A stretch of 50,135 nt of DNA from a virus. Position numbers and translations under genes: made by a program. Below the pieces are notes generated by a model. The model made no database searches and was not told the DNA's origin. It saw only the letters and a program-made list of their open reading frames with translations. Positions 6,566 through 42,065 of the stretch are shown here, in pieces (position 1 is the first letter of the stretch; every line of letters starts with the position of its first letter). The stretch is taken from positions 1-50,135 of IMG/VR virus record IMGVR_UViG_3300011128_000204. One strand, written 5' to 3'.

Positions 6566-9500
6566 TGATCACTGTAAGGTTGCCTGATGGCAGATCTGTA
6601 AATGTAAATACAGATGATCAAGATGCGGCTAGAAGAACCGCCCAAAAATACTTAAATGAAAACCCACTGGTTGAGCGTGGCGCAGAGTTAGCTGAAGAAG
6701 ATATCTCAGCAGTAGGCGATGTTGCTAGAGGCTTAGGTGCCAGTGTTGTAAGCGCGGCTGAAGGTATTGCCACGCTACCTATGGAATTAGCAGGCTCTGA
6801 TGAAGAAAACATTCAGACAGTCAGAGACTTTTTCAACAAGTACAAGCCAGAGACTCAAACTGAATTAGGCAAAGCTGTAAGATTTATTGGGCAGTTTGCC
6901 ATTCCAGGTGGGGCTGCTATGAAGTTGGCCAAGGGGCTAGGTACTTCAGGCAAGATAGGCGCTGCAATAGCTACAGACATAGCTGTAACCACACCTGATG
7001 TTGAGACTCTAGGCGACTTCTTCGATGCTGGCCCAACCAAAAGGATTGATACATCCGATTTAGCGGGGGCAGAACTTGCTGCAGCTAACTTATCAAACCG
7101 ACTTCGTGTAGGTGCAGAGGGCGCGGCTGTGGTCCTTGGCGTTCCAGCTATTGCAAAGCTTGGCGCTAAAGCTGTTGGCGCTGGAGCAGATGCTCTAGCC
7201 GGTACAGACTTTATTAAAGCAGCAGCGCAAGCCATTAAAGACCCAAATACACCCTTTAGTAATGTTGGTGTTAGGCCAGATCTTGAAGATCCTACATTCC
7301 TGCAACGAAACTTTGAACGTTTAGGTAAGGTTGGGAGAAAGTATTTTTCTCAACAAGGAGAGTTGCCCGATAGGTTTACAGCCATGTATGACGCTATACG
7401 GGTATCACATATAGCGGCGAAGAACTCAAAGGCAAGACAAGCTGTTGAGAAGATGGAGAACGCTTTGTCTTTTGCCAACAAGAATGAAGGTATATTCAAC
7501 GGGCAAAACAAATCAGAAATTCTTGATACGTTAAACAATTATCTTTTTGCAGAAACCACAGGCATGAAGGCTGGGGTATCAAGGGATACCATAAGAAACA
7601 ACGCCGAAAGACAGCTTAGAGAAGTTGACGATATCATTGCCAAGAACGCGCCTAAAAGCTTGTTTGGCGGCAAGAAAAACTTAAGTCTTTTTGATGGCGC
7701 AAAAGAACTGCGTGATCATATTGATGGGTTGAGCGGTTCTGTAAGAAGCATTTTAGATGATTCACTTCTTCCTGAAGAATCAAAGCAAGCCTTGATCGAT
7801 ACCATTGGTAATAACGAAACATTCTACGGAATGCGTTTGTATCGAGCTTTAGATGATGTGAATTACAAACCAACAGTTGAACAAGAAGCTTTAGCTGTTG
7901 ATGAACTGGTTAAGTCTAGCGCAGGACTTGATGAAGCTTCTAAGTTAAATTCTAATCAAGCAAAAGAATTGCTAAACAGTATGATGCAAAGCGATTTTAA
8001 CAACGCTGCCATGAAGCCTAAAGATGTTGTTGATCCACCAACTTTGAATGGTGTATCTCAAGGCATGCTTAAAAATAGGCGGTTAGATACTTTACCTGCA
8101 GTTAGAGACTTTTTAGGTGAGTACACTGGCGCTAAAGATGTGGTCGCTAGGTTCAAGCCTGAACGCATAAGAGCACGAGATGTTGCAGAGCAAGAAGCGG
8201 GTCTTCGCACCAAGATGATTGAGACTGTTGATGTTATGTCAAAGCACATAGCTAAAGCCGACTATTACAAAAACCTTATTAATTACAACAACAAGCTTGG
8301 AGATCGTAAGTTTATCTTTGATAGCTTGCCTCCCAATGCTCGTGTCGGGGAATACTCCAAGATAGGATCAGAATCTTCTAACCCTTTAAGTGAAATATCA
8401 GAGGGTCAGATATCTAGGTTTGGTCCGCTTGCTGGCAAATATATAAAGAACGAGTACAAAGCTGCCCTTGAAGGTGGTGCTGATATTTTTGATTTAGCCA
8501 AAGGGGGCATACCGCTTTACTCGACGTTCCTAGGCTTGAAGGGTTTGTCTCAAATAGCTAAAACAGTTTACAGCCCAATCACCCAGATAAGAAACGCGAC
8601 AACAGCCAGCTTCTTCGCATTGGCTAATGGTAATGTCGGCAACTCAAAAGCTTTGGCAAATTCTGTATCAACTGTATTCAGTAATTTAAACCAAAGATTG
8701 ACTGGGCCAGGTAAAAGCAACGCCACTCTTGCGGAAAGACAAGATTATTACAATGACCTTATTGATTTGGGTGTTGTTAATACTAACGCCAAAATTGGCG
8801 AGTTTGAATCGCTCATGAGTGATGCGGCAGAGGGTACTGGAATTGGTTCTGGGCTTGGCAAAGCCATGTTCAAAAAAACCCAAGGGTTACAAAACAGTTT
8901 TGCTGCAAAGCTTTATCAAGCATCTGATGATGTGTGGAAAACATACAGTTATGAAATGGAACTTGGTCGGCTTGAAAATGTGTTTGGTAAAAACCCTAAT
9001 GCATCAATAGCTGTATCTGACCCAAGAAACTTTACAGAGTTTGGGCCGGTCATAAGGGCTTCTGAATTAACTGAAGAGCAACTAAAGCTTGCGATGAAAC
9101 GTGAAGCTGCAGAGATTGTCAAAGACACCGTGCCTAACTACTCTCGCGTTCCAGAGTACATTAAAAGGCTAAGGCAAATGCCGTTTGGTAACTTCGTTGC
9201 CTTCCCTGCTGAGATGATCAGGACCAGCGGGAACATTCTTGGTCGAAGCATTAAGGAGTTAGCAAGCGAGTCTCCAGAGATTCGTGAAATAGGTATGAGG
9301 CGCTTAATGGGCCTCACATCTGTGAACGTAGCAATACCAACTTCTTTGGTTAAAGCAGGAACAATTTTAACTGGCGCGGATCAAGAACAGATAGATGCTT
9401 ACAAGCGTTCTATGGCCGCTGATTGGGATAGAAACTCTACGTTAATACCTGTGGCTACAGATAAAAATGGCAAGGTTACCGACTTCTATAACTTCTCGTA

Positions 9501-21820: not shown

Positions 21821-22582
21821 ATGAGTAGTGATTTGTTGGGCGCAGAACAGGTGAGTGAGGATGAGTATGATGCTGACACTGACATACTCAATAGTCCAAA
21901 GCGGCATGCGATTGCAAAGTTTAAGGAACGTCCGTTTACAAAAAAACAACAGGCGTTTATCCAGGCATTTGTTTATCAAGATCTGACCAACACAGAGTGT
22001 GCGTTTCGTGCAGGCTACTCAGTGCCAACTCAGTCGGCATCTATGCTGCTTAATGATCCCAGATACACGCATGTGCAGAATAAGATTAGGGAGCTACAAG
22101 AATCTAACCAGAAGAAGTATGAGATTACTTTTGAGAAGGTTGCGCGTGATCTTCAGATGATCAGGGATGCAGCAGTCGAGGATGGTTCGTATGGGGCGGC
22201 AGTAACTGCTGAGTTAGGCAGAGCAAAACTTGCAGGGCTGATGGTCGATAAGAAAGAGATCAAGCATGGGCGTATCGATCAGATGGATAGGTCAGAGGTT
22301 GAGTCAAGACTCAAGGCGTTGATCGATAAGAATCAACTTGCGCCTGTGCTCATGGAGAAGGTGGTGAGCGAGGAGGAAGTGCCAGAGGAGGTTGAGGAGG
22401 TGGTTGAAGAAGATTTCTCTGATATCACAGATGAGGAGGCTGAGATCATGGAGCAACAGGCTGATGCCATGGCAGAGGTTGAAGCGATTGATGGCTTTGA
22501 AGAATGGGATGATGAAGATGGTGATGATGGGGAGGATGAGATCCTCGACTCCGAAGAGCGCGAGGATGGTGAGGAGGACTAG
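21821..22582 (+). CDS. terS: Terminase small subunit
   Basis: 253 residues. The conserved N-terminal DNA-recognition part KKQQAFIQAFVYQDLTNTEC then AFRAGYS with a following helix and the later ITFEKVARDLQMIRDAA and AGLMVDKKEI match terminase_2-type small subunits that bind the packaging start site. The C-terminal 80 residues are extremely acidic (EEVEEVVEEDF, DDEDGDDGEDEI), unusual in degree. It lies 5.8 kb from the large subunit gene, with an opposite-strand block between them. Its stop codon shares the palindrome CTAG with the stop of the convergent gene. Confidence 0.85.
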   Translation: MSSDLLGAEQVSEDEYDADTDILNSPKRHAIAKFKERPFTKKQQAFIQAFVYQDLTNTECAFRAGYSVPTQSASMLLNDPRYTHVQNKIRELQESNQKKYEITFEKVARDLQMIRDAAVEDGSYGAAVTAELGRAKLAGLMVDKKEIKHGRIDQMDRSEVESRLKALIDKNQLAPVLMEKVVSEEEVPEEVEEVVEEDFSDITDEEAEIMEQQADAMAEVEAIDGFEEWDDEDGDDGEDEILDSEEREDGEED

Positions 22583-22911
22583 ACAAGGTGCCTAGGTGGT
22601 CTGAACATCTTGCCCTTACGCATCAGTTCAGTAAGTCGCTTAGGCTTGGGTATCTTCACAGCCTGTTGTGATCTGAATGCCTTGAGCCTATGGCTTGCAC
22701 TACAGAATCTAGACAGTGGGTGGTGAGCCTTGAATGGTTCACCGCACCACTCACACTTGAAGTCACGCAGAACACGGTGCTTGTGTATCTCAGCAGAGTT
22801 CTCACGCAGCCCACCCCATTCAGCCTCATCTCGAGAGGGTGAGGTAGGTGAGGTGAGTGAGGTGGGTGATGTAGGTTTATCAGTATAGTTCGACTGCATT
22901 GGGTAGCTCAT
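22579..22911 (-). CDS. FCS/HNH-like zinc-finger protein with Thr-Ser-Pro linker
   Basis: 110 residues. After a low-complexity TSPTSLTSPTSPS linker (about 14-26) comes a zinc finger of the pattern CEWCGEPF ... RFCSASHR, common in small phage DNA-binding proteins. A basic tail (KIPKPKRLTELMRKGKMFRP) follows. The gene ends on the CTAG it shares with the small terminase stop and overlaps the upstream gene by 32 bases. Function unknown, probably nucleic-acid binding. Confidence 0.6.
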   Translation of the reverse strand: MSYPMQSNYTDKPTSPTSLTSPTSPSRDEAEWGGLRENSAEIHKHRVLRDFKCEWCGEPFKAHHPLSRFCSASHRLKAFRSQQAVKIPKPKRLTELMRKGKMFRPPRHLV

Positions 22912-23116
22912 TAACCTTTTTTTGAAGTGATGTCCATGCGGACTTGAGTGCGCCCTCTTCTTCTTTTGTGTAGGCTTGCGACCAGAAGCATGTGCCTATC
23001 AAGCCATGGATGCGCGGGTCATCGGTTGATGAACTCATCATGCGTAACAGTAACTCACGCTCAATGATGGTCAGGTTGATCAGAAAAATGGGATCGGTAG
23101 TGTTCGTATCACTCAT
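22880..23116 (-). CDS. Small protein, unknown
   Basis: 78 residues, helical. IFLINLTIIERELLLRMMSS gives a short hydrophobic helix, too broken by charges to be a confident membrane segment. Its start lies inside the end of the methyltransferase gene (8-base overlap). Similar small proteins with 'TIxExELLLxML' occur as unknowns in phage accessory regions. No function proposed. Confidence 0.55.
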   Translation of the reverse strand: MSDTNTTDPIFLINLTIIERELLLRMMSSSTDDPRIHGLIGTCFWSQAYTKEEEGALKSAWTSLQKKVNELPNAVELY

Positions 23117-23849
23117 GGTTCATTTCCTTGTCTGCGGCAAGCACAAGCTCACCTATTATTTGAATTAGTTGAGGTACAACAGCGTTGCCTAGGGATTTAA
23201 TTCTGTCCACCCTATTGGGAACCCCATCAGCCACTCGACCCACTGCGGGTTCAGTTGGCCAGTCACCGCCTGTCTCCCACCCAAGTCGTTGATCACCTTC
23301 GTGGTCAAGCTTTCTTGTGTGCCTTTCTTTCCCCGACTCCTGTCTTGATAGCCCAGCCTCGCCTCGTGAGCTAGTGGCGTAGGCCACAATGAATACCCTG
23401 TCTCTGCGGTGCTTCGCGTCAACGGCACAAGCTGGTAGTACAAACGTCCTGACGGTGTAGCCTTCGTTTTCCAAGTCAAGCGACACATCGTCGAGTGCCA
23501 TGCGGACGAAGCCAGAAACATTTTCTCCAATGACCCATCTTGGCTTGGACTCACTGATGACTCGTAACATTTCAGGCCAGAGGTGACGGTCATCGTCTTT
23601 GCCTCGCTGCTGTCCTGCAACTGAAAATGGTTGGCAAGGGAATCCCCCGCAAACAACGTCAATTGACCCTGCGTATTTTGTTCCATCTAATTTCCTCACA
23701 TCGCTATGCACAGGCACATCAGGCCAATGCTTGTTTAGTATCTTGGTACAGAATTCATCACGCTCACAGAAGGCAGTGGTAGTCATACCACACGCCTCCA
23801 ACCCAAGCGAGAACCCGCCTATGCCTGAGAAGAGATCAAGGACTCTCAT
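23109..23849 (-). CDS. DNA cytosine-5 methyltransferase (compact phage Dcm type)
   Basis: 246 residues from the ATG at 23,849, which overlaps the upstream stop in ATGA (a GTG at 23,864 would add five residues). Motifs: I DLFSGIGGFSLG, IV GGFPCQPFS with catalytic Cys72, VI GENV (Glu109 region), VIII HRRDRVFIVA, X LGNAVVPQL. Only about 65 residues separate motifs VIII and X, so the target-recognition domain is minimal compared with the usual 300-400-residue enzymes. It would methylate phage DNA, most likely to evade host restriction. A second long reading frame on the same strand lies inside it (23,189-23,686). Confidence 0.92.
   Translation of the reverse strand: MRVLDLFSGIGGFSLGLEACGMTTTAFCERDEFCTKILNKHWPDVPVHSDVRKLDGTKYAGSIDVVCGGFPCQPFSVAGQQRGKDDDRHLWPEMLRVISESKPRWVIGENVSGFVRMALDDVSLDLENEGYTVRTFVLPACAVDAKHRRDRVFIVAYATSSRGEAGLSRQESGKERHTRKLDHEGDQRLGWETGGDWPTEPAVGRVADGVPNRVDRIKSLGNAVVPQLIQIIGELVLAADKEMNHE
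23189..23686 (-). CDS. Overlapping reading frame inside the methyltransferase gene, phage 'WVEWLMGFP' family
   Basis: A 165-codon frame on the same strand as the methyltransferase but in another phase. It starts with ATG seven bases after AGGA. Its product has the marks of a protein family I know from many phages as separate genes: QLTLFAGDS near the start, LTWKTKATPSGRLYYQLVPL, SLWPTPLAHEA, and LNPQWVEWLMGFPIGWTEL at the end. In phase one the same bases read GGFPCQPFS, HRRDRVFIVA and VGRVADGVPNRVDR, all methyltransferase motifs. Either it is a true overlapping gene or the free-standing family arose from this frame. Expression is unproven. Confidence 0.5.
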   Translation of the reverse strand: MEQNTQGQLTLFAGDSLANHFQLQDSSEAKTMTVTSGLKCYESSVSPSQDGSLEKMFLASSAWHSTMCRLTWKTKATPSGRLYYQLVPLTRSTAETGYSLWPTPLAHEARLGYQDRSRGKKGTQESLTTKVINDLGGRQAVTGQLNPQWVEWLMGFPIGWTELNP

Positions 23850-24109
23850 TGCAGGTGCGCACACCGTATTGGTGCGCCATCATCATCGACCTCATCAGTG
23901 TCATAGAAGTCTTCACCTTCTTTTGATCGGTAAGGCTTGATATCGCCCTGCTGCACAATATCTTCTGCAGCCTCCCAATCTTCAGCCTCGACAAGGAAGC
24001 TTTCAGTTATGGTTCTGGTCACTCTTACTTCAAACTTAGAGGTAGCCCTATCAGATGCTGGCTTTTTTGAAGGAATGTCATCTTGGAATATAACGAAATC
24101 AGGACACAT
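23846..24109 (-). CDS. Small protein, unknown
   Basis: 87 residues. The middle (KFEVRVTRTITESFLVEAED...EAAEDIVQQGD) has the strand-helix layout of small phage proteins in which a beta strand with xFxVxVTRTxxxxxxVxVxA is followed by a helix. Acidic C-terminus. It overlaps the methyltransferase start (ATGA) and has GAGG before its own ATG. No function known. Confidence 0.58.
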   Translation of the reverse strand: MCPDFVIFQDDIPSKKPASDRATSKFEVRVTRTITESFLVEAEDWEAAEDIVQQGDIKPYRSKEGEDFYDTDEVDDDGAPIRCAHLQ

Positions 24110-24111
24110 GG

Positions 24112-24501
24112 TTAGCCCTCCTCTTGGTTTAGTAGTGTGGATAAAGGTTTGATTGTCTCTTGTGATTCACGCCATTCGATTACATCAGCGAGTAAGTCAT
24201 CAAGGCTTTGGGTGAATGGGTAGTCTTTGGCTACGCGGTTGTTGAATTCCTCTTCATCAACTTCGCACATCTCAGCGAGATTCATCAGTGCGTGCTCAAG
24301 CATCATGATGTTCTGAACCACGGCATCTTCTTCGACTACCAGTGTTGACATGCTCTTAGGTAATCGAGTTACCCAGCCATCGCCAGCCAATGCTTGGGCG
24401 TTAGCTTCCCGATGGTTAGAGGCAAGTACGCGCACCTCATGGCGTACAAGTTCGTGGGTGGTGACAACAAAGTGCTCTAGGTTTGGGTGTAGGTCAGTCA
24501 T
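24112..24501 (-). CDS. Acidic helical protein, unknown
   Basis: 129 residues from the ATG at 24,501, which overlaps the stop of the gene upstream (ATGA) and has GGAGG nine bases before it; a longer frame to 24,516 is not supported. The N-terminal third has a strand/helix pattern (HFVVTTHELVRHEVRVLASN), the rest is acidic helix (NLAEMCEVDEEEFNNRVAKD). No recognised domain. Confidence 0.58.
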   Translation of the reverse strand: MTDLHPNLEHFVVTTHELVRHEVRVLASNHREANAQALAGDGWVTRLPKSMSTLVVEEDAVVQNIMMLEHALMNLAEMCEVDEEEFNNRVAKDYPFTQSLDDLLADVIEWRESQETIKPLSTLLNQEEG

Positions 24502-25109
24502 TCTGCATTCCTCCAATGCTTAAGGGCTTTTGATTCGGACAGTTCGTTGAGCCAAACGTATGGCTTTTTTTCATGGTATTTTTTGAGCGGATCAATGTTT
24601 GATTCCACAGGAGTGGTTTTCCAGAAATCTATTTCACGGGTGCGTGTGTTGTACGCGCAAACATATTTCTTCAAGTGCTTACGCATCTCTTTCAAGAGTT
24701 CAATCTCATTGATCAGGTCAGCGATCAACCAATCGATTAACTCATCATGATCAGCGAAGCGGTCAATAGCCCAATCGTAATCCTCACCCTTAGCCTCAAT
24801 GTAACGCACAGCTTCTTTGCGTGCTTCAGACATAGCGTTCTTGAAGTCGGAGAGTTGAGCGTTACGCTTTTCTCCAGCTTTTTGCGTCTTGCCATAGGGG
24901 TAGTAGTTGTTCGGCCCACCACGGCCTTCGTTCTCTGCGGAGAAGGCACGCTTGCCATCGATGTAGACGGTTGCAGTAAAGCAATGTGTTTCTTGGCTAA
25001 AGTGCGTGTTGAGCTTTAGGTTCTTAATCTCAATGCTGTTAGCTCTGCCGTACTCCTCAAGAGTCGGGTCGCTCGATGGCTGGAATGGGTTGGGGTTTCT
25101 CTGCGTCAT
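24498..25109 (-). CDS. Conserved phage protein, unknown
   Basis: 203 residues. I place the start at the ATG at 25,109, preceded by ATTAAACAAAAGGAGTCAGA, the leader shared by the whole block; the longer frame to 25,148 would translate through that leader. The pattern SIEIKNLKLNTHFSQETHCF, TATVYIDGKRAFSAENEGRG, GGPNNYYPYG matches a family I have seen in many phage genomes without known function. The C-terminal half is helical. Confidence 0.65.
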   Translation of the reverse strand: MTQRNPNPFQPSSDPTLEEYGRANSIEIKNLKLNTHFSQETHCFTATVYIDGKRAFSAENEGRGGPNNYYPYGKTQKAGEKRNAQLSDFKNAMSEARKEAVRYIEAKGEDYDWAIDRFADHDELIDWLIADLINEIELLKEMRKHLKKYVCAYNTRTREIDFWKTTPVESNIDPLKKYHEKKPYVWLNELSESKALKHWRNAE

Positions 25110-25130
25110 TTCTGACTCCTTTTGTTTAAT
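25110..25130 (-). promoter_or_regulatory. Conserved leader with ribosome-binding site
   Basis: Minus-strand ATTAAACAAAAGGAGTCAGAA directly before the ATG at 25,109. The core TTAAACAAAAGGAG corresponds to the leader in front of every minus-strand gene from here to 27,986. It decides the start of this gene. Confidence 0.6.
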
Positions 25131-25278
25131 GTTTGAGAACCGTATCATGCATTAGTGTTGCGAGACAAGCGGATTATAAAAATAAATTATTAAAGTGTGT
25201 GTATTTGTGGGTATTTCGGGGGGAGAGTCGCACCCACCCCTCCCACAAGGGGTGTAGCGTTTGATTTGGGGGCGATTC

Positions 25279-25458
25279 CTTGCGGCCTTGAGTGATCGGG
25301 TGGGGTAGGGCTTGCGCCCTTGAGAGCGCCCCTGCTTGCGGCCTAGGGGCATGTATATATATACATGTTTTTGGGGGAGTGCTTGCGCCCTTTCTTGCGG
25401 CCTAGCTTGCGGCCTTCATGATTATATATATTTTGCGCGTGCTTGCGGTTCGCGGCCT
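25279..25458. repeat. CTTGCGGCCT decamer cluster, block 1
   Basis: In the gene-free stretch 25,131-25,532 there are exact or near copies of CTTGCGGCCT at 25,279, 25,311 (CTTGCGCCCT), 25,335, 25,382 (CTTGCGCCCT), 25,394, 25,406 and a degenerate pair at 25,442-25,458. Between them lie AT-rich self-complementary tracts (ATGTATATATATACAT, ATTATATATATT). All copies point the same way. The rest of the stretch holds no credible gene; open frames through it run across the repeats and lack ribosome sites. Confidence 0.75.
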
Positions 25459-25532
25459 TCCCTTTTTCCAGGGATCGCAAACTCCTGCCTAAGCGTAAGC
25501 CTAGGCGCTGAGTTGGTTGGTGGTCGCGCAAA

Positions 25533-26261
25533 CTACGCGACCTCAAATAGTGGGATAATATTGGTATCGACTACAAAGCCATTGGTGTTTTGCTTTGCTG
25601 GGCCTTTGGCTGTTAGCCCGATGATCACTTCACCAGAGTAGACATTGTCTAGGTCGGATTTGTCGCCGTCGATTACTTGGCGGCCTAGGAATATGTCTGG
25701 CATTGGGCCGCGAAATACTACGGCAATCGGTACGCCATAGCACAAAGCTTCTAATACTTGCTTGCGATATTGTGCGCGCCCACTATACGAGAACATTAGC
25801 TTATAATTTTCTGGCGTTTTGCCTAAGCGTTTTGCGCGCTTGGTGTAGTCATAGAAGAATAGTTCGGGAAATTGTTGCGGTATCCTGTAACCTTCCCAAT
25901 CTATATCAGACAAAACATTGAGGCGAACTACGCCTTTCACGCCTTGCTTGTCGCATAACTTGGAAAAGTTTGTCAGCTCTCTTGTGAGTTGGGTTAAGAA
26001 TCCTACCTTGTCATCGTGCCAGTAATCGGTGCGCGCTTGGCGTGCTATGTTCACGCTCTTATAAACTGATGCTAGTCCAGCTTCCTTAAGGCAGTCTTCC
26101 ATACACCCCGCCGCTTTGCTGCCAGCGCAAATTAAAAAGTCTGGCATCATAGACAATGAAGCCATTCTAACCTTGCCGCCAAATGGCAAACCTTTTTTGC
26201 CAGTCTTGGCAACTTTTGTGTTCCCGCTTTTCTTTGCGGTATCTAATAGTTTTTTAACCAT
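25533..26261 (-). CDS. GP88/DUF7227-like phage protein
   Basis: 242 residues. The layout MPDFLICAGSKAAGCMEDCL, VNIARQARTDYW, VRLNVLSDIDWEG, FYDYTKRAKRL and LMFSYSGR matches a phage family I know as GP88 or DUF7227, with conserved Cys in the first block and an Asp/Tyr-rich core. Its function is unknown; members occur in very different phages. Here it sits alone between two stretches of CTTGCGGCCT repeats. Its leader (TTAAACAAAGGAATATATAA) matches the other genes of the block. A GGTCGCG/CGCGACC hairpin overlaps its stop codon. Confidence 0.7.
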   Translation of the reverse strand: MVKKLLDTAKKSGNTKVAKTGKKGLPFGGKVRMASLSMMPDFLICAGSKAAGCMEDCLKEAGLASVYKSVNIARQARTDYWHDDKVGFLTQLTRELTNFSKLCDKQGVKGVVRLNVLSDIDWEGYRIPQQFPELFFYDYTKRAKRLGKTPENYKLMFSYSGRAQYRKQVLEALCYGVPIAVVFRGPMPDIFLGRQVIDGDKSDLDNVYSGEVIIGLTAKGPAKQNTNGFVVDTNIIPLFEVA

Positions 26262-26356
26262 GATTATATATTCCTTTGTTTAAGTTGCATTAGTGTATCA
26301 AAAAATCCAGGAATAAAACACTTTTTTTTGTGGCGTGTAATCGGTGATTTAAAACA

Positions 26357-26464
26357 CTTGCGGCCTTGCGGCCTTCGTGCTTTCAAAAAAAATGGCCGCT
26401 TGCGGCCTCGATTCTTTTTTATATATTAGTGCAAGTCGCTTGCGACCTTGCGGCCTTGCGGCCT
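26357..26464. repeat. CTTGCGGCCT decamer cluster, block 2
   Basis: Second block of the decamer, in the gene-free stretch 26,285-26,496. Exact copies at 26,357, 26,365, 26,399, 26,447 and 26,455 and one CTTGCGACCT at 26,439; neighbours overlap by two bases to give CTTGCGGCCTTGCGGCCT. AT-only runs (ATATATTTATATATATAT) follow. Same orientation as block 1, and the two blocks bracket the GP88-like gene. No protein is predicted here. Confidence 0.75.
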
Positions 26465-26496
26465 TCATATATTTATATATATATTTATTGCCAGGC

Positions 26497-26522
26497 AAAA
26501 AAATGGAGGGCTACTGCCCTCC
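26497..26522 (-). terminator. Intrinsic terminator of the small-gene cassette
   Basis: On the minus strand: GGAGGGC-AGTA-GCCCTCC, a 7-bp perfect stem with a four-base loop, followed by ATTTTTTT. It lies ten bases after the stop of the 72-residue gene, so transcription of 26,532-28,007 probably ends here and the GP88-like gene needs its own promoter. Confidence 0.85.
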
Positions 26523-26531
26523 CCATTCTGA

Positions 26532-26750
26532 TTAACTGTGAGTGTACCCGTCTGGCTCAATGCCTAGCATCATATTGGGTACTGCGACCATGATGCAGTC
26601 GGAAAATGCTGGGTGAACATCGCGTGTAACCCAATCGATAAAGCCTAGGTTCTTAAAATCCCCATGGTCGCTGTCGCGTACATGGCGCTCGAACACTCTG
26701 ACTAATGCATCTTTTTGCAGTTTGGTCGCTTCGTTATTGATCATATCCAT
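26532..26750 (-). CDS. Small protein, unknown
   Basis: 72 residues from the ATG at 26,750 (MDMINNEATKLQKDALVRVF...). The longer frame to 26,792 would read through a hairpin and the shared leader ACTAAACCAAGAGGAAATA, so the shorter start is chosen. The product looks like a small alpha/beta protein ending AVPNMMLGIEPDGYTHS. Similar small unknowns are common in phage accessory regions. A terminator follows directly. Confidence 0.6.
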   Translation of the reverse strand: MDMINNEATKLQKDALVRVFERHVRDSDHGDFKNLGFIDWVTRDVHPAFSDCIMVAVPNMMLGIEPDGYTHS

Positions 26751-26790
26751 TGTTATTTCCTCTTGGTTTAGTGTGGGGGATTTCTCCCCC
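26751..26790 (-). promoter_or_regulatory. Hairpin-plus-leader module
   Basis: Minus strand: GGGGGA-GAAA-TCCCCC (26,775-26,790), a 6-bp stem closed by a GAAA tetraloop, then ACACTAAACCAAGAGGAAATAACA and the ATG at 26,750. The same geometry with different stem bases occurs before the genes at 27,413 and 27,724. Confidence 0.65.
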
Positions 26791-26797
26791 ATGTTGG

Positions 26798-27118
26798 TTA
26801 TTGATTAAGACCTAGTGATTGATGGCGCAAGAACATCGCGGCTTCATCATCATGGGCACCATATAGCGCCTCCCATTCTGGCGTGGCCTCTACCAGATAC
26901 CCATGCTGCAAAACATCGCGAGCATATGTATCTCCCATTTCAAAACTGCCGCCATGCATCAATGGTGAAGTAGCAGCGACAAACCAGCGAGAATAATCGT
27001 GCTCGTTTTCTTTATGCTTGTACGTTTTTAGTACGCGCCATTCCCAGCCATTGGTGCTTTTATATATTGCATATGGCTTATCTTGCGTTGTAGTTTTTCC
27101 GAATGTTGTTCTAGGCAT
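26798..27118 (-). CDS. Small protein, unknown
   Basis: 106 residues. Rich in aromatics (YAIYKSTNGWEWRVLKTYKH, YSRWFVAATSPLMHGGSFEM), consistent with a small beta-sheet protein. The C-terminal part (EWEALYGAHDDEAAMFLRHQ) is helical. The start is preceded by TTAAACAATAGGAGCATTAA, the block's leader. Similar unknown proteins occur in phage accessory blocks. No function proposed. Confidence 0.6.
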   Translation of the reverse strand: MPRTTFGKTTTQDKPYAIYKSTNGWEWRVLKTYKHKENEHDYSRWFVAATSPLMHGGSFEMGDTYARDVLQHGYLVEATPEWEALYGAHDDEAAMFLRHQSLGLNQ

Positions 27119-27190
27119 GTTAATGCTCCTATTGTTTAAGTAATGATATCAATCGATATCGCAATACCCGCCGCCAATGTGACGGGTATT
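27119..27190 (-). promoter_or_regulatory. Leader with two inverted repeats
   Basis: Between the gene at 27,204 and the ATG at 27,118: an inverted repeat AATACCCG (27,163-27,170)/CGGGTATT (27,183-27,190), then GATATC-AATC-GATATC (27,145-27,160), then TTAAACAATAGGAG. Stem-loop plus leader again, but here without the GAAA tetraloop. No T tract, so not an obvious terminator. Confidence 0.5.
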
Positions 27191-27203
27191 ACGCTATGGA
27201 TTA

Positions 27204-27413
27204 TTAGCACGCAGTCATTTGAATCAGCGTTGTGCCTTCACCTTTAGCGTATGCGGTAACAATCTCGACTGCTTCTTCCCATGAATTCGCACCATCCGCA
27301 AAAAATCCATCTAAGTACTCGTTGTCGAATATGCATTCCGCATTGGTATCTTCGTGCCATTCGCCATAACACTCTACTTCCTGATCGTTTTTTATAATTA
27401 TTTGCTTATCCAT
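27204..27413 (-). CDS. Small acidic protein, unknown
   Basis: 69 residues (MDKQIIIKNDQEVECYGEWH..., DGFFADGANSWEEAVEIVTA). Strand-helix pattern, acidic, two or three cysteines. Small proteins with 'ANSWEEAVEIV' near the C-terminus are frequent in phage genomes but uncharacterised. It is preceded by the hairpin and the leader AACTAAACCAAAAGGAAATA. Confidence 0.6.
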   Translation of the reverse strand: MDKQIIIKNDQEVECYGEWHEDTNAECIFDNEYLDGFFADGANSWEEAVEIVTAYAKGEGTTLIQMTAC

Positions 27414-27454
27414 TGTTCTATTTCCTTTTGGTTTAGTTCGGGCCTTTCGGCCCG
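27414..27454 (-). promoter_or_regulatory. Hairpin-plus-leader module
   Basis: Minus strand: CGGGCC-GAAA-GGCCCG (27,439-27,454), then AACTAAACCAAAAGGAAATA and GAACA before the ATG at 27,413. Six-bp stem, GAAA tetraloop, same distance to the leader as in the other copies. CTAAACCAAA also occurs just upstream of the hairpin, overlapping the stop codon of the preceding gene. Confidence 0.68.
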
Positions 27455-27460
27455 TTTGGT

Positions 27461-27724
27461 TTAGATTGCCGTGATTTTTACAGTCGTTCGGGTATGAGCC
27501 TTAACGTCTGACATGGCGACTGACCATGCTACTGTTTCATTGTCGATCTTAAACTTGCCAGAATCGCGTCCCGTGTTTGCGCTTACTTTCTTGGCGCGCT
27601 CTTTTGCTGGCGTTAACTTTTGCGCTATCGCCTTCTCAATTGTCGCCAATTGCTTTGCGCGTTTCGTTTGAGATATCTCAAACTTCAAAAGCTTTTGCTG
27701 TGCGAATAACTCTTTTAATTCCAT
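27461..27724 (-). CDS. Small basic protein, H-NS-like layout
   Basis: 87 residues. An N-terminal helix with heptad spacing (LKELFAQQKLLKFEISQTKR, AKQLATIEKAIAQKL), a basic linker, then a short strand-rich C-terminus (GKFKIDNETVAWSVAMSDVK). The layout, coiled dimerisation helix plus small basic domain, resembles short nucleoid-type or H-NS-like proteins, but I do not see the diagnostic DNA-binding loop. Unknown function. Has the block's hairpin and leader. Confidence 0.55.
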   Translation of the reverse strand: MELKELFAQQKLLKFEISQTKRAKQLATIEKAIAQKLTPAKERAKKVSANTGRDSGKFKIDNETVAWSVAMSDVKAHTRTTVKITAI

Positions 27725-27764
27725 TGTTCGATCCCTTTGGTTTAGTGTGGGGCCTTTCGGCCCC
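27725..27764 (-). promoter_or_regulatory. Hairpin-plus-leader module
   Basis: Minus strand: GGGGCC-GAAA-GGCCCC (27,749-27,764), then ACACTAAACCAAAGGGATCG and the ATG at 27,724. Third hairpin of identical geometry. Confidence 0.68.
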
Positions 27765-27770
27765 GTTTGA

Positions 27771-27986
27771 TTATAGTTCGGTGTTGAGATCTTCAGTCTC
27801 AGCCATTTGAATTAGAACCTCGCGCAATGTTTTGTCTCCGACCATGGAGTTAAATGCAGCGCGTCCATTCAAATCCAATTGGCAATATGCAGAGTGCAAT
27901 GCCACCATTGCTACTTTTAGGCTGGCTGTTCTGCTATCGGCAATGCCGTATTGAATCAGTAGTTCGCGGTATCTTATTCTATCCAT
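27771..27986 (-). CDS. Small protein, unknown (first gene of the cassette)
   Basis: 71 residues from the ATG at 27,986 (MDRIRYRELLIQYGIADSRT...), which follows the leader ACACTAAACAAAAGGAATAG. A longer frame to 28,031 would translate the leader and is rejected. Mainly helical with LKVAMVALHSAYCQLDLNGR. No family recognised. It is the first gene after the likely promoter of the minus-strand cassette. Confidence 0.58.
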   Translation of the reverse strand: MDRIRYRELLIQYGIADSRTASLKVAMVALHSAYCQLDLNGRAAFNSMVGDKTLREVLIQMAETEDLNTEL

Positions 27987-28007
27987 CTTACTATTCCTTT
28001 TGTTTAG
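27987..28007 (-). promoter_or_regulatory. Conserved leader with ribosome-binding site
   Basis: Minus-strand ACTAAACAAAAGGAATAGTA and AG before the ATG at 27,986. Shares the core TAAACAAAAGGAATA with the leaders of the other minus-strand genes. A weak hairpin with a GAAA-type loop lies just upstream (around 28,015-28,033). Confidence 0.55.
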
Positions 28008-28043
28008 TGTTTTGCTATGCCGTTTCGCCATAACATGGATGTT

Positions 28044-28071
28044 ATGTTAGCAGGTTGACCGATCATTGCAA
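28044..28071 (-). promoter_or_regulatory. Candidate promoter for the minus-strand cassette
   Basis: On the minus strand TTGCAA (28,066-28,071) and TAACAT (28,044-28,049) are 16 bases apart, close to sigma-70 -35 and -10 boxes, with an AT-rich stretch upstream. A CATAAC/GTTATG inverted repeat overlaps the -10 side. It is the first plausible promoter before the gene at 27,986. Confidence 0.35.
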
Positions 28072-28147
28072 TAACGTTTCACGAATAATTGTAATCTTTT
28101 TTATCTTTTTTTCTTTTTTTGCCGCAATCGTCTGCCTGATTAACCTC

Positions 28148-28267
28148 TGGCGACCACTGCATTGCAGCCTCGATAGGGTAGGGTAGTCGCCCGCACAGCT
28201 TCGCAGGCGCGACAGCCTGCGCTGCGGACTAGGTACCCTAGGACGCAGACCCAAAAAAAGAGTCCGC
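28148..28267. other. GC-rich structured stretch before the large terminase gene
   Basis: The gene-free interval 28,072-28,360 contains dense inverted repeats: CTGCATTGCAG near 28,157, CGCAGGC/GCCTGCG (28,202-28,221), CTAGG-TAC-CCTAG (28,229-28,241) and GCGGACT/AGTCCGC (28,224-28,230 and 28,261-28,267), the last enclosing the previous one and an A tract. It is far richer in G and C than its flanks. No tRNA fold is seen. It could be a packaging site, a structured RNA or a transcription stop between converging and diverging units. Confidence 0.45.
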
Positions 28268-28360
28268 GATTTATCGCACCCTCACCCCCCTAATGTAGGC
28301 AACTGTATAGTCTTAGTGTATATATAACGTTCGCCACCCATAATTATATGAAAATTACAA

Positions 28361-29824
28361 ATGACTAACTTGAGCCACTTGTCTGAGGGCGAGATGAAGG
28401 AGATCCTAATGTTGCAAGAGCGTTTATCGCTTTTGGAAACGCAGGACAAGTCCAAGGACTCTTTTATGGAGTACATCCGGTACATTTGGCCTGGGTTCAT
28501 TGAGGGTGATCACCACCGTATTATTGCTGATGCGTTGACCCGTGTTGCTAAGGGTGAGTTAAAGCGGTTGATTGTGAACATGCCGCCCCGTCATACGAAG
28601 TCTGAGTTCGCTTCTATTTACTTTCCTTCATGGGTCATGGGTTTGAAGCCTGACATGAAGATCATGCAGACCACCCACACGGCTGACTTGTCTATTAACT
28701 TTGGCCGCAAGGTCAGAAATTTAATGGATTCTGACGAGTATGCAAAATTATTCTCGAATGTGTCTTTGGCCAGTGACTCAAAATCTGCGGGAAAGTGGCA
28801 AACGAATAAGGGGGGGGAATATTTCGCTGCTGGTGTAGGAGGCGCGATTGCGGGTCGCGGTGCTGACTTGTTGATCATTGACGATCCGCACTCTGAGCAG
28901 GACGCAATGTCTATTAATCTGCTTGATTCTTGTTATGAGTGGTATACGTCTGGTCCCCGCCAGCGTTTACAGCCTAATGGTGCGATTGTAATTGTGATGA
29001 CTAGGTGGAGCACGGCAGACTTGACGGGTCGGTTGTTGAGTCGGCAGGTTGAGAGTCGCTCTGACCAGTGGGAGGTCATTGAGTTACCGGCTATTTTTGA
29101 GGATTCTGGCAACGTACTGTGGCCTGAGTTCTGGAAGGAGGAGGAGCTTCTTTCTGTTAAGGCATCTATTCCTGTAGCTAAGTGGAACGCTCAGTACCAG
29201 CAGAACCCTACGTCTGAGGAGGGTGCGATCATTAAGCGCGACTGGTGGCAGTTGTGGGATAAGGATGACCCGCCGCCTTGTTCGTACATTATTCAGTCTT
29301 ATGATACTGCCTTCAGTAAGAAAGAAACCGCCGACTATTCGGCCATTACTACTTGGGGTGTATTTAAGCCGAAGGAGGGCATGGGTGATGCTTTGATCCT
29401 GTTGGACGCGATTAAGGGTAGGTGGGACTTCCCTGAGTTAAAGGCGGTTGCACAGGAGCAGTATGCTGAGTATGAGCCTGATATGGTTTTGATTGAGGCG
29501 CAGGCGAGTGGTACGCCGCTTACGCATGAGCTTCGTGCTATGGGAATCCCTGTGGTGAACTATCGGCCATCTAGGGGTAACGACAAGATGACGCGGGTTC
29601 ACTCTGTGAGTCCTGTGTTTGAGGCGGGGATGGTGTATGCGCCTGATCAGGGATTTGCTGATGAGGTGATTGAGGAGTGCGCTGCATTTCCGTTTGCACA
29701 GAACGATGACTATGTGGATACTACGACACAGGCCATATTAAGATTTAGGCAGGGTAACTTTATTAATCTTTATTCTGACGAGGAAGAAGAGGAAGTTTAC
29801 CGACAACAGATATCATATTATTAA
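28361..29824 (+). CDS. terL: Terminase large subunit
   Basis: 487 residues. The ATPase half has the Walker A variant MPPRHTKSE (74-82), an adenine-region motif before it, and Walker B LLIIDDPHSE (Asp174-Asp175). The nuclease half has SYDTAFSKKETADYSA, VLIEAQASGTPL and NDDYVDTTTQ, the three acidic clusters of the RNase H-like nuclease. It cuts and pumps concatemeric DNA into the prohead through the portal encoded at 33,282. Length is normal for the family. Confidence 0.95.
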   Translation: MTNLSHLSEGEMKEILMLQERLSLLETQDKSKDSFMEYIRYIWPGFIEGDHHRIIADALTRVAKGELKRLIVNMPPRHTKSEFASIYFPSWVMGLKPDMKIMQTTHTADLSINFGRKVRNLMDSDEYAKLFSNVSLASDSKSAGKWQTNKGGEYFAAGVGGAIAGRGADLLIIDDPHSEQDAMSINLLDSCYEWYTSGPRQRLQPNGAIVIVMTRWSTADLTGRLLSRQVESRSDQWEVIELPAIFEDSGNVLWPEFWKEEELLSVKASIPVAKWNAQYQQNPTSEEGAIIKRDWWQLWDKDDPPPCSYIIQSYDTAFSKKETADYSAITTWGVFKPKEGMGDALILLDAIKGRWDFPELKAVAQEQYAEYEPDMVLIEAQASGTPLTHELRAMGIPVVNYRPSRGNDKMTRVHSVSPVFEAGMVYAPDQGFADEVIEECAAFPFAQNDDYVDTTTQAILRFRQGNFINLYSDEEEEEVYRQQISYY

Positions 29825-40485: not shown

Positions 40486-41394
40486 ATGGCTATTTCAAGA
40501 GCACAATTAGCCAAAGAGCTAGAGCCTGGCCTCAATGCTTTATTTGGTATGGAATATGCGCGTTATGAAAACGAGCACGCTGAGATCTTTGAAACTGAAT
40601 CTTCTGACCGAGCGTTTGAAGAAGAGGTTCTGATCGTAGGCTTTGGTAATGCACGGGACAAGTCTGAAGGTCAAGGTGTCGGTTACGACTCTGCGTCTGA
40701 AGGTTTCACCGCTCGTTACACACACGAAACTGTTGCACTGGCTTTCGCTTTGACGGAAGAAGCAGTAGAAGATAATTTGTATGACCGCCTTGGCGCACGT
40801 TATACAAAGGCTCTTGCACGCAGCATGGCACACACCAAGCAAGTTAAAGCTGCTAACGTCTTGAACAATGCGTTCAATTCTAGCTTTGCTGGCGGTGACG
40901 GTGTTGAGTTGATTGATGATGCACACCCCTTAGCTGGTGGTGGTACATTCTCAAATCGTCCTTCAGCGTACTCAGATTTGAACGAAACATCTCTAGAAGA
41001 TGCTTTGATCAACATCTCTACGTTTGTTGATGATCGAAACATGATCTTGGCTCTGCAAGGAACCAAGCTTATTGTTCCACCTCAACTTCAGTTTGTTGCT
41101 GATCGTCTATTGGAAACACCAGGGCGTGTAGCTACAGCAGACAACGACATCAATGCTATTAGGAACATGGGACTGTTGCCACAAGGCTACGCAGTAAACC
41201 ATTTCTTAACAGACACTGATGCTTGGTTTGTCTTGACTGACTGCCCAGATGGTCTAAAGCACTTTGAACGTAGCCCGATTTCAACTTCTATGGAAGGTGA
41301 CTTCGACACAGGCAACGTGCGATACAAGGCTCGTGAACGCTACAGCTTCGGCTTTAGTAACCCACGCGCAGTGTTCGGATCGCAAGGTGCGTAA
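40486..41394 (+). CDS. Major capsid protein (HK97-fold, Mu gpT-like)
   Basis: 302 residues. AKELEPGLNALFGMEYARYE at the start, GVGYDSASEGFTARYTHETV, FALTEEAVEDNLYDRLGARY and the end YKARERYSFGFSNPRAVFGS follow the pattern of Mu gpT-like major head subunits (HK97 fold: N-arm, E-loop, P- and A-domains). It is the structural shell protein, made in several hundred copies. GGGAG precedes the start, and an intrinsic terminator plus a long palindrome follow the stop, as for the most highly expressed gene. Confidence 0.88.
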   Translation: MAISRAQLAKELEPGLNALFGMEYARYENEHAEIFETESSDRAFEEEVLIVGFGNARDKSEGQGVGYDSASEGFTARYTHETVALAFALTEEAVEDNLYDRLGARYTKALARSMAHTKQVKAANVLNNAFNSSFAGGDGVELIDDAHPLAGGGTFSNRPSAYSDLNETSLEDALINISTFVDDRNMILALQGTKLIVPPQLQFVADRLLETPGRVATADNDINAIRNMGLLPQGYAVNHFLTDTDAWFVLTDCPDGLKHFERSPISTSMEGDFDTGNVRYKARERYSFGFSNPRAVFGSQGA

Positions 41395-41413
41395 TTGTTT
41401 CATGTGAAACAAT
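41394..41413. repeat. 20-base palindrome resembling a parS site
   Basis: ATTGTTTCATGTGAAACAAT starts on the last base of the capsid stop codon: arms of nine bases with a TG centre. The inner 16 bases, TGTTTCATGTGAAACA (41,396-41,411), differ at one position from the ParB-binding parS consensus TGTTTCACGTGAAACA. It could equally be a plain hairpin that protects the capsid mRNA end; a terminator stands 6 bases on. Confidence 0.6.
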
Positions 41414-41445: not shown

Positions 41446-41516
41446 ATGTGTGATATAAAAAGTTATTCCTGACAGGCGCATACCGTGCCTGACACTAGCC
41501 ACGACAGGAGATCCTC

Positions 41517-42065
41517 ATGGCGAATACAACCTTCAATGGTGCAGTCCGTTCCGAGAACGGTTTTAAAGTTATTTCTAAAAGCTCAACAACTGGTGCAGTT
41601 ACTGACGTAGTCGATATTGCTTCTACTGGTATCGTAACCGCTAAGTATCTTAAGCACGTTGGGTACGCGACTGGTGTTACTGTAAACAGTACTGCTGGCG
41701 ATAGCCCGACTATAGGTGAGTTTACTCAGCCTGCTAACACAATTATCACTGACATCAAGATTTTTTGTGATACCGCTCCTGTTATTGGAACAGGCGACAT
41801 TGGTTATGAAGTTGGTACTTCTAGCTCTGGCGCACAAATCGTAGCGGCGGTGACTGATGAGATTCTTGATGGCGGCACCACTGTTGTTGTACACAATGTG
41901 ACTTTGACTACTTTGGTTGTTCAGACTCAAAGCGGTACTACGGCTCCTGCTTCTGTTCAATACACAGACACTGCAAGAACTATCTTCTGCAACATCACTA
42001 ATACAGTTGATGCTACAACAGCGGGATCGTTTACGTTCATCATTGAATACGTTCAGATAGCGTAA
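41517..42065 (+). CDS. Beta-rich virion protein
   Basis: 182 residues. FNGAVRSENGFKVISKSSTTG, then many Thr/Ile/Val/Gly strands (PANTIITDIKIFCDT, VVVHNVTLTTLVVQTQSGTT) consistent with a beta-barrel head or head-fibre protein. ACAGGAG precedes the start. Its own leader (41,446-41,516) contains an AT-rich possible promoter and a CAGGC/GCCTG hairpin. Similar proteins follow the capsid gene in aquatic phages; function inferred as structural. Confidence 0.65.
   Translation: MANTTFNGAVRSENGFKVISKSSTTGAVTDVVDIASTGIVTAKYLKHVGYATGVTVNSTAGDSPTIGEFTQPANTIITDIKIFCDTAPVIGTGDIGYEVGTSSSGAQIVAAVTDEILDGGTTVVVHNVTLTTLVVQTQSGTTAPASVQYTDTARTIFCNITNTVDATTAGSFTFIIEYVQIA

Follow-up and report, generated by a model that had tools for sequence, protein, structure and literature searches.

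Stop-locked RNA folds punctuate a small-gene operon beside the terminase gene of uncultivated marine phages

The DNA analysed here (the window) is the whole of a 50,135-base uncultivated viral record with a G+C content of 46.6%, which carries genes for the terminase large subunit, the portal, the capsid and the tail. Genes were called with a simple custom caller, and the small open reading frames are predictions. Because of its structural genes and a terminase that is 57-62% identical to those of the phages 023Pt_psg01 and DSL-LC04 and of the Pelagibacter phages HTVC027P and HTVC023P, we place the virus near this group; a DNA-level BLAST of the region against named phages gave no matches. Relatives were collected as 80 loci via the terminase and 49 via the GP88-like protein encoded at 25533-26261, with near full-length contigs for several of them, and since these contigs are phylogenetically non-independent, the counts given below are not counts of events.

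In the neighbourhood of the major capsid gene (40486-41394), the palindrome TGTTTCATGTGAAACA, which we take to be close to the bacterial parS consensus, lies directly past the stop codon at 41396-41411. Similar palindromes accompany a 909-base gene, equal in length to the capsid gene, in four long relatives (G001, G002, G003 and G009), and perfect GTTCCACGTGGAAC sites occur elsewhere in G006. A scan of the window against Rfam at the gathering threshold yielded a single match, the Mu-gpT-DE RNA (RF03012, 71.5 bits) at 41467-41519 on the plus strand, past the capsid gene and ahead of the following one, and none at the hairpins described in the following.

Next to the terminase gene, five small genes form a leftward operon on the minus strand, and every junction among them holds an RNA fold that starts 6-9 nt past the stop codon (folds are given here in the direction of that strand). 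The first gene (27771-27986, 71 aa, family 15), an open reading frame behind the leader ACACTAAACAAAAGGA with homologues in relatives, is followed by the hairpin GGGGCC-GAAA-GGCCCC (27764-27749; fold z-score -3.06) and by a leader with ribosome site, CACTAAACCAAAGGGA (27725-27748). The second gene (27461-27724, 87 aa, family 8) is succeeded by CGGGCC-GAAA-GGCCCG (27454-27439; z-score -3.10) and the leader ACTAAACCAAAAGGAAATA (27414-27438), and the third (27204-27413, 69 aa, family 25) by a two-hairpin element (27194-27145; model R1, 52 bits), in which a 12-bp stem with the conserved base RCGTR..YTGC precedes GATATC-GATT-GATATC. The leader AAACAATAGGAG (27119-27144) then introduces a gene of 106 aa (26798-27118, family 4). 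Behind it stand the hairpin TGGGGGA-GAAA-TCCCCCA (26791-26774; 7 bp including an outer T-A pair, z-score -2.34), the leader CACTAAACCAAGAGGAAATA (26751-26773) and the last gene of the hairpin-punctuated group (26532-26750, 72 aa, family 14). These leaders and their ribosome sites were assigned by sequence and consensus match, and the genes of 69 and 72 aa as open reading frames with a family assignment. The operon ends with GGAGGGC-AGTA-GCCCTCC followed by ATTTTTTT (together 26522-26497).

Two further features of the leftward strand may be recorded. The motif CACTAAT/CACTAAG, seen by eye upstream of several leftward genes (at about 28,310, 26,430, 26,290 and 25,155), is possibly a promoter element. 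Nine copies of GGCCGCAAG, with a GGCC stem arm and a GCAA loop, are packed on the minus strand into the two long non-coding gaps that flank the GP88-like gene (25279-25414 and 26357-26463), and similar GGCCGCA pieces also lie 3' of genes in the contigs L010 and L007.

The three GAAA-loop hairpins are present where an earlier note on this DNA had located them. Each starts 6 nt past the preceding stop codon and lies 24, 25 and 23 nt, respectively, from the next ATG, in gaps of 46-47 nt. No other hairpin in the whole window satisfies a strict definition (at least six Watson-Crick pairs, at least five G-C pairs and a loop of the GNRA or UNCG type), and all three fall into gaps between co-directional genes. 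In the 2,339 nt of such gaps, three hairpins compare with 0.0045 expected, and none of 2,000 dinucleotide shuffles reached this number.

The near-identical leader that had been described behind these hairpins is equally real. Compared with a 21-nt consensus extended from the sequence originally proposed (ACACTAAACCAAAAGGAAATA), the three leaders match at 20, 19 and 17 positions; the related leaders before the genes at 25,109, 26,261, 27,118 and 27,986 are genuine and weaker (12-15 of 21), and a further one, overlooked at first, precedes the gene at 24,109 (ACTAAACCAAGAGGA). Overall, the A-rich leader stands upstream of most minus-strand genes from 24,109 to 27,986, with or without a hairpin, and a consensus comparison within the window did not find it upstream of the structural genes. 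Since most genes of the leftward group share it irrespective of a hairpin, we regard the leader as the ribosome site of this group; the idea that it is a fixed partner of the hairpin was rejected, as it also stands without one. The leader before 27,118 stands without a GAAA hairpin, and its gap contains the longer two-hairpin structure instead (fold z-score -4.15). On contig 3300035501_000068 (L105), which was retrieved by a DNA pattern alone, GCGCTC-GAAA-GAGCGC at 8418 on the plus strand stands immediately ahead of ACTAAACCAAAAGGA and an ATG, and so repeats the pairing of hairpin and leader.

Related marine phages carry equivalent units in the same terminase-adjacent operon, and in the contigs examined, U-poor units of stop codon, hairpin and start codon sit mainly in the small-gene operon. 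A covariance model of the three window hairpins alone, as had been suggested, would be too poor in information. As covariation on short hairpins that had been selected for pairing would be circular, the evidence was drawn from orthologous junctions and from 3' ends defined by protein homology. Among 43 U-poor junctions of this type in the relatives, the hairpin lies 5-8 nt past the stop codon in 39, whereas its distance to the next start ranges from 14 to 50 nt. The earlier reading of the units as 5' UTR cassettes is therefore not supported: with a position locked to the stop and not to the start, the hairpins are intercistronic or 3'-end elements. The stop codon is TAA in 42 of these 43 junctions, compared to 40 of all 71 genes in the window, and the spacer between stop and hairpin consists of 44% A, 40% C and 1% G. 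Homologues of the upstream genes provided 84 distinct 3' ends, of which 64 had a hairpin no more than 16 nt past the stop (a U-rich tail being absent in 51 and present in 13), so that the hairpin belongs to the 3' end of the upstream gene at least as much as to the leader downstream; it is not an essential element, given that 20 of the 84 ends have none within that distance. A role in stop-codon read-through or frameshifting was rejected, because the next gene has no consistent frame (counts of 19, 15 and 9 modulo 3).

The proposal that structure rather than DNA sequence is conserved finds support in these junctions, since stems and loops differ at orthologous positions and the stable loops lie nearly all on the mRNA strand. 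The loops of the 43 U-poor junctions are UUCG (25), GAAA (9), UCCG (4), GCAA (3), GUGA (1) and UACG (1), and for one and the same combination of neighbouring gene families, the GGGGGC/GCCCCC stem is closed by GAAA in L006 and L009 and by UCCG in L010, L011 and L022. In RNA, the stability of a UNCG loop requires a C-G closing pair, which is found in 49 of 56 cases. On the strand of the small genes, the commonest four-nucleotide loops are UUCG (40), GAAA (13), UCCG (7), GUAA (6) and UGCG (5), and CGAA, the form that UUCG takes on the opposite strand, is not among the 24 commonest; among longer loops, the sole comparable excess concerns six-nucleotide loops of the CTTCGG type, i.e., UUCG loops counted with their closing pair. 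This near confinement of stable loops to the coding strand implies that selection acts on the RNA. A DNA-level operator or a bidirectional terminator was rejected on the same strand bias, since the two strands would be equivalent for a function of the DNA.

Intrinsic termination normally requires a U-run, and the presence of such a run varies with where in the operon a hairpin stands. With a gene start at most 60 nt away, 38 hairpins were without a run of at least five U and 5 had one, compared to 8 without and 11 with such a run where no gene start lay within 60 nt (Fisher p = 0.0003). Genes of family 4 illustrate this, being followed by a U-less hairpin where they are internal (in the window, L128, L071 and L344) and by a terminator where they are the last of their group (L010, L011 and L027). 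Accordingly, the operon-end hairpin of the window possesses the U-run of an intrinsic terminator, which is absent directly 3' of the stems of all three GAAA hairpins.

In view of these data, the question arises whether the hairpins are weak or factor-dependent terminators, namely attenuators that would produce a falling expression gradient along the operon. Like intrinsic terminators, they are GC-rich hairpins just past a stop codon, with the same stop spacing and stem type as the true terminators of the same operons, and the relatives alternate both forms behind the same gene family. Some internal hairpins moreover retain 4-5 U in the first nine nucleotides, and identical AGGGGC-UUCG-GCCCCT stem-loops are trailed by seven T in L132 and by five in L140. 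However, each of the three hairpins in the window has only one T within the nine nucleotides 3' of its stem, and the U-run is mostly missing internally and often present at operon ends, from which we consider attenuation an unlikely general explanation. For some internal hairpins, five of the 43 near a start having at least five U, it may still apply.

A main effect on translation and not on decay, by which the hairpins would block coupling of termination and reinitiation or keep the ribosome site unpaired, appears quite unlikely as well. Genes at hairpin junctions are 46-47 nt apart and each possess a ribosome site of their own, while overlaps occur between neighbours farther along this strand (e.g., 24112-24501 and 24498-25109), and a hairpin that ends 23-25 nt upstream of the ATG would stand approximately at the edge of the 30S footprint. 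Nevertheless, a near-fixed distance to the stop combined with a variable distance to the start is the opposite of what would be expected of a purely 5'-acting element.

The two-hairpin element represents a second type of fold. It follows the pattern RCGTR-stem-YTGCGATGC-N-GCATC, begins 6 nt past the stop in the relatives and 9 nt in the window and L128, and was found in the window, L006 (two copies), L009-L011, L021, L022, L024, L027, L128, L344, L034 and L045. In 12 distinct copies, 99% of the cells contain standard pairs, a percentage that is inflated because the copies were partly found by requiring pairing, and both sides have changed at 8 of the 17 pairs. The covariation score of these copies was unmatched by any shuffle, and pairing fell to 23-55% when the partner was shifted by 1-3 columns. 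Copies located 3' of homologues of gene 27461-27724 were found independently, by protein similarity, and the covariance model recovers them together with two remote copies (L034 and L045). The broad pattern TTGCGATGC-N-GCATC was discarded as too loose, its matches being mostly unrelated; the stricter pattern occurs in 18 viral stretches, and the 12 bacterial or archaeal genome stretches that contain it gave no covariance-model match at an E-value of 0.01. Since no Rfam family was found for the element in the window (gathering threshold) or in four relatives (permissive threshold), the fold looks new.

The two-hairpin element stands before several different genes, and the gene at 27461-27724, which a GAAA hairpin follows in the window, has homologues in L011, L014, L016 and L344 that are followed by the two-hairpin element. 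As the same gene family thus precedes either one, the two element types replace each other. One could speculate that the element is a new marine-phage RNA family whose base, RCGUR..YUGCGAU, is bound or cut by a specific protein or nuclease, and which serves, in exchange for stable-tetraloop hairpins, as another kind of cistron boundary; we put this forward tentatively, as a possibility that is less probable than its converse.

The units look interchangeable, as had been suspected, in that one upstream gene family precedes different downstream families and what stands at the 3' end of the same gene may be a terminator, a two-hairpin element or a hairpin without U-run, depending on the phage. 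Gene order around the hairpin units varies among the relatives. At non-homologous junctions, spacer and leader resemble each other more within a genome (0.40) than between genomes (0.24; p = 0.0009), and the loop is the same in 94% of within-genome unit pairs compared to 39% between genomes, both comparisons including clade effects. The PeSL (promoter early stem-loop) cassettes, which are known from T4-type phages, are described as small intergenic stem-loops associated with accessory genes and gene shuffling (Arbiol et al., 2010; Comeau et al., 2014; cited in PMC4503421), and to that extent stem-loop units between exchangeable small accessory genes are a feature of the present operon too. The within-genome resemblance would agree with units that were copied from or recombined with one another, which is also the proposal for the PeSL cassettes (cited in PMC4503421). 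This resemblance and the variable gene order would both agree with recombination joints that shuffle small genes in a PeSL-like manner, with any RNA function being secondary. Yet the strand specificity of the stable loops and the compensatory changes in the stems indicate selection at the RNA level, and homogenisation could be a by-product, which renders this explanation highly improbable. A promoter-like (sigma-70-type) site, searched for with a pattern that may not be that of the host, was not detected on the minus strand of 22500-29000, and the 23-25 nt between hairpin and ATG leave no room for a promoter and its own start site. Lastly, an artefact of chance or base composition is refuted, for although loosely defined hairpins (at least five pairs, G-U allowed, GNRA or UUCG tetraloop) are unenriched across the window (29, compared to 22-43 in ten shuffles), the gaps show a strong excess of GC-rich hairpins of at least six Watson-Crick pairs, which recur in relatives.

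From our point of view, the hairpins are probably genuine mRNA control elements of a kind that is already known from phage T4. The CUUCGG hairpins of T4 (Tuerk et al., 1988, as described in PMC8948821) have extra-stable tetraloops and are mostly intergenic and on the coding strand, and their known roles include stabilisation of the gene 32 mRNA (PMC8948821). In three 50-kb pieces of T4 that served as a positive control, the order of stop codon, 2-6 nt, hairpin, ribosome site and start codon, without a long U-run, was found in several places. The hairpins of the window likewise combine a GC-rich stem with an extra-stable tetraloop between genes on the coding strand. In contrast to T4, their loops are GAAA, with GNRA and UNCG exchanged among the relatives; every junction of one operon is punctuated, at a near-fixed distance from the stop, and the hairpin can be replaced by a second type of element. 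In the relatives, UUCG is the most frequent loop; because the window itself has GAAA loops and no C(UUCG)G, we assign its hairpins to the wider stable-tetraloop kind and not to the strict CUUCGG class. In a scan of viral contigs for a UUCG hairpin followed by a ribosome site, in which the pattern itself did not require an upstream stop codon, 111 of the 117 distinct matches listed had a stop 1-14 nt upstream. The general kind is thus widespread in phages. In HTVC027P and HTVC023P, the closest named isolates with a known host species (TerL 57-58% identical over the full length), a punctuated operon is missing next to the terminase gene and the G+C content of the regions is 35-36%; a single UUCG hairpin precedes a ribosome site in HTVC023P.

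Regarding their function, it seems fairly probable that the hairpins act as mRNA segment boundaries which combine read-through by the polymerase, a block to exonucleases and translational insulation of each cistron. The main rivals of this reading are attenuation and a purely translational insulation. RNA polymerase would pass the U-less hairpins without terminating. Inside the operon, the fold at a junction is either a short GC-rich stem, closed by GNRA or UNCG and free of a U-run, or the two-hairpin element, and the operon end is marked by an intrinsic terminator, in which a U-run follows the hairpin. Each hairpin could stop 3'-to-5' exonucleases, so that the upstream cistron would outlive cleavage in the unpaired leader. 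It could further keep upstream sequence, as well as ribosomes fresh from termination, away from the next ribosome site, and the A-rich leader behind each fold, as the next gene's own Shine-Dalgarno site, would then permit independent translation of every small gene. The read-through, the protection and the insulation are predicted here from sequence comparison.

Overall, the small-gene operon of these uncultivated marine phages is divided by stop-locked folds into cistron-sized RNA units. If the proposed role is true, the story of the stable T4 hairpins would reach a distant phage group, and it would come with a testable rule, namely a U-run at the operon end and none inside, as well as with one undescribed covarying RNA motif. 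It would also call for caution in annotation, as some of the 'terminators' between phage genes may not terminate.
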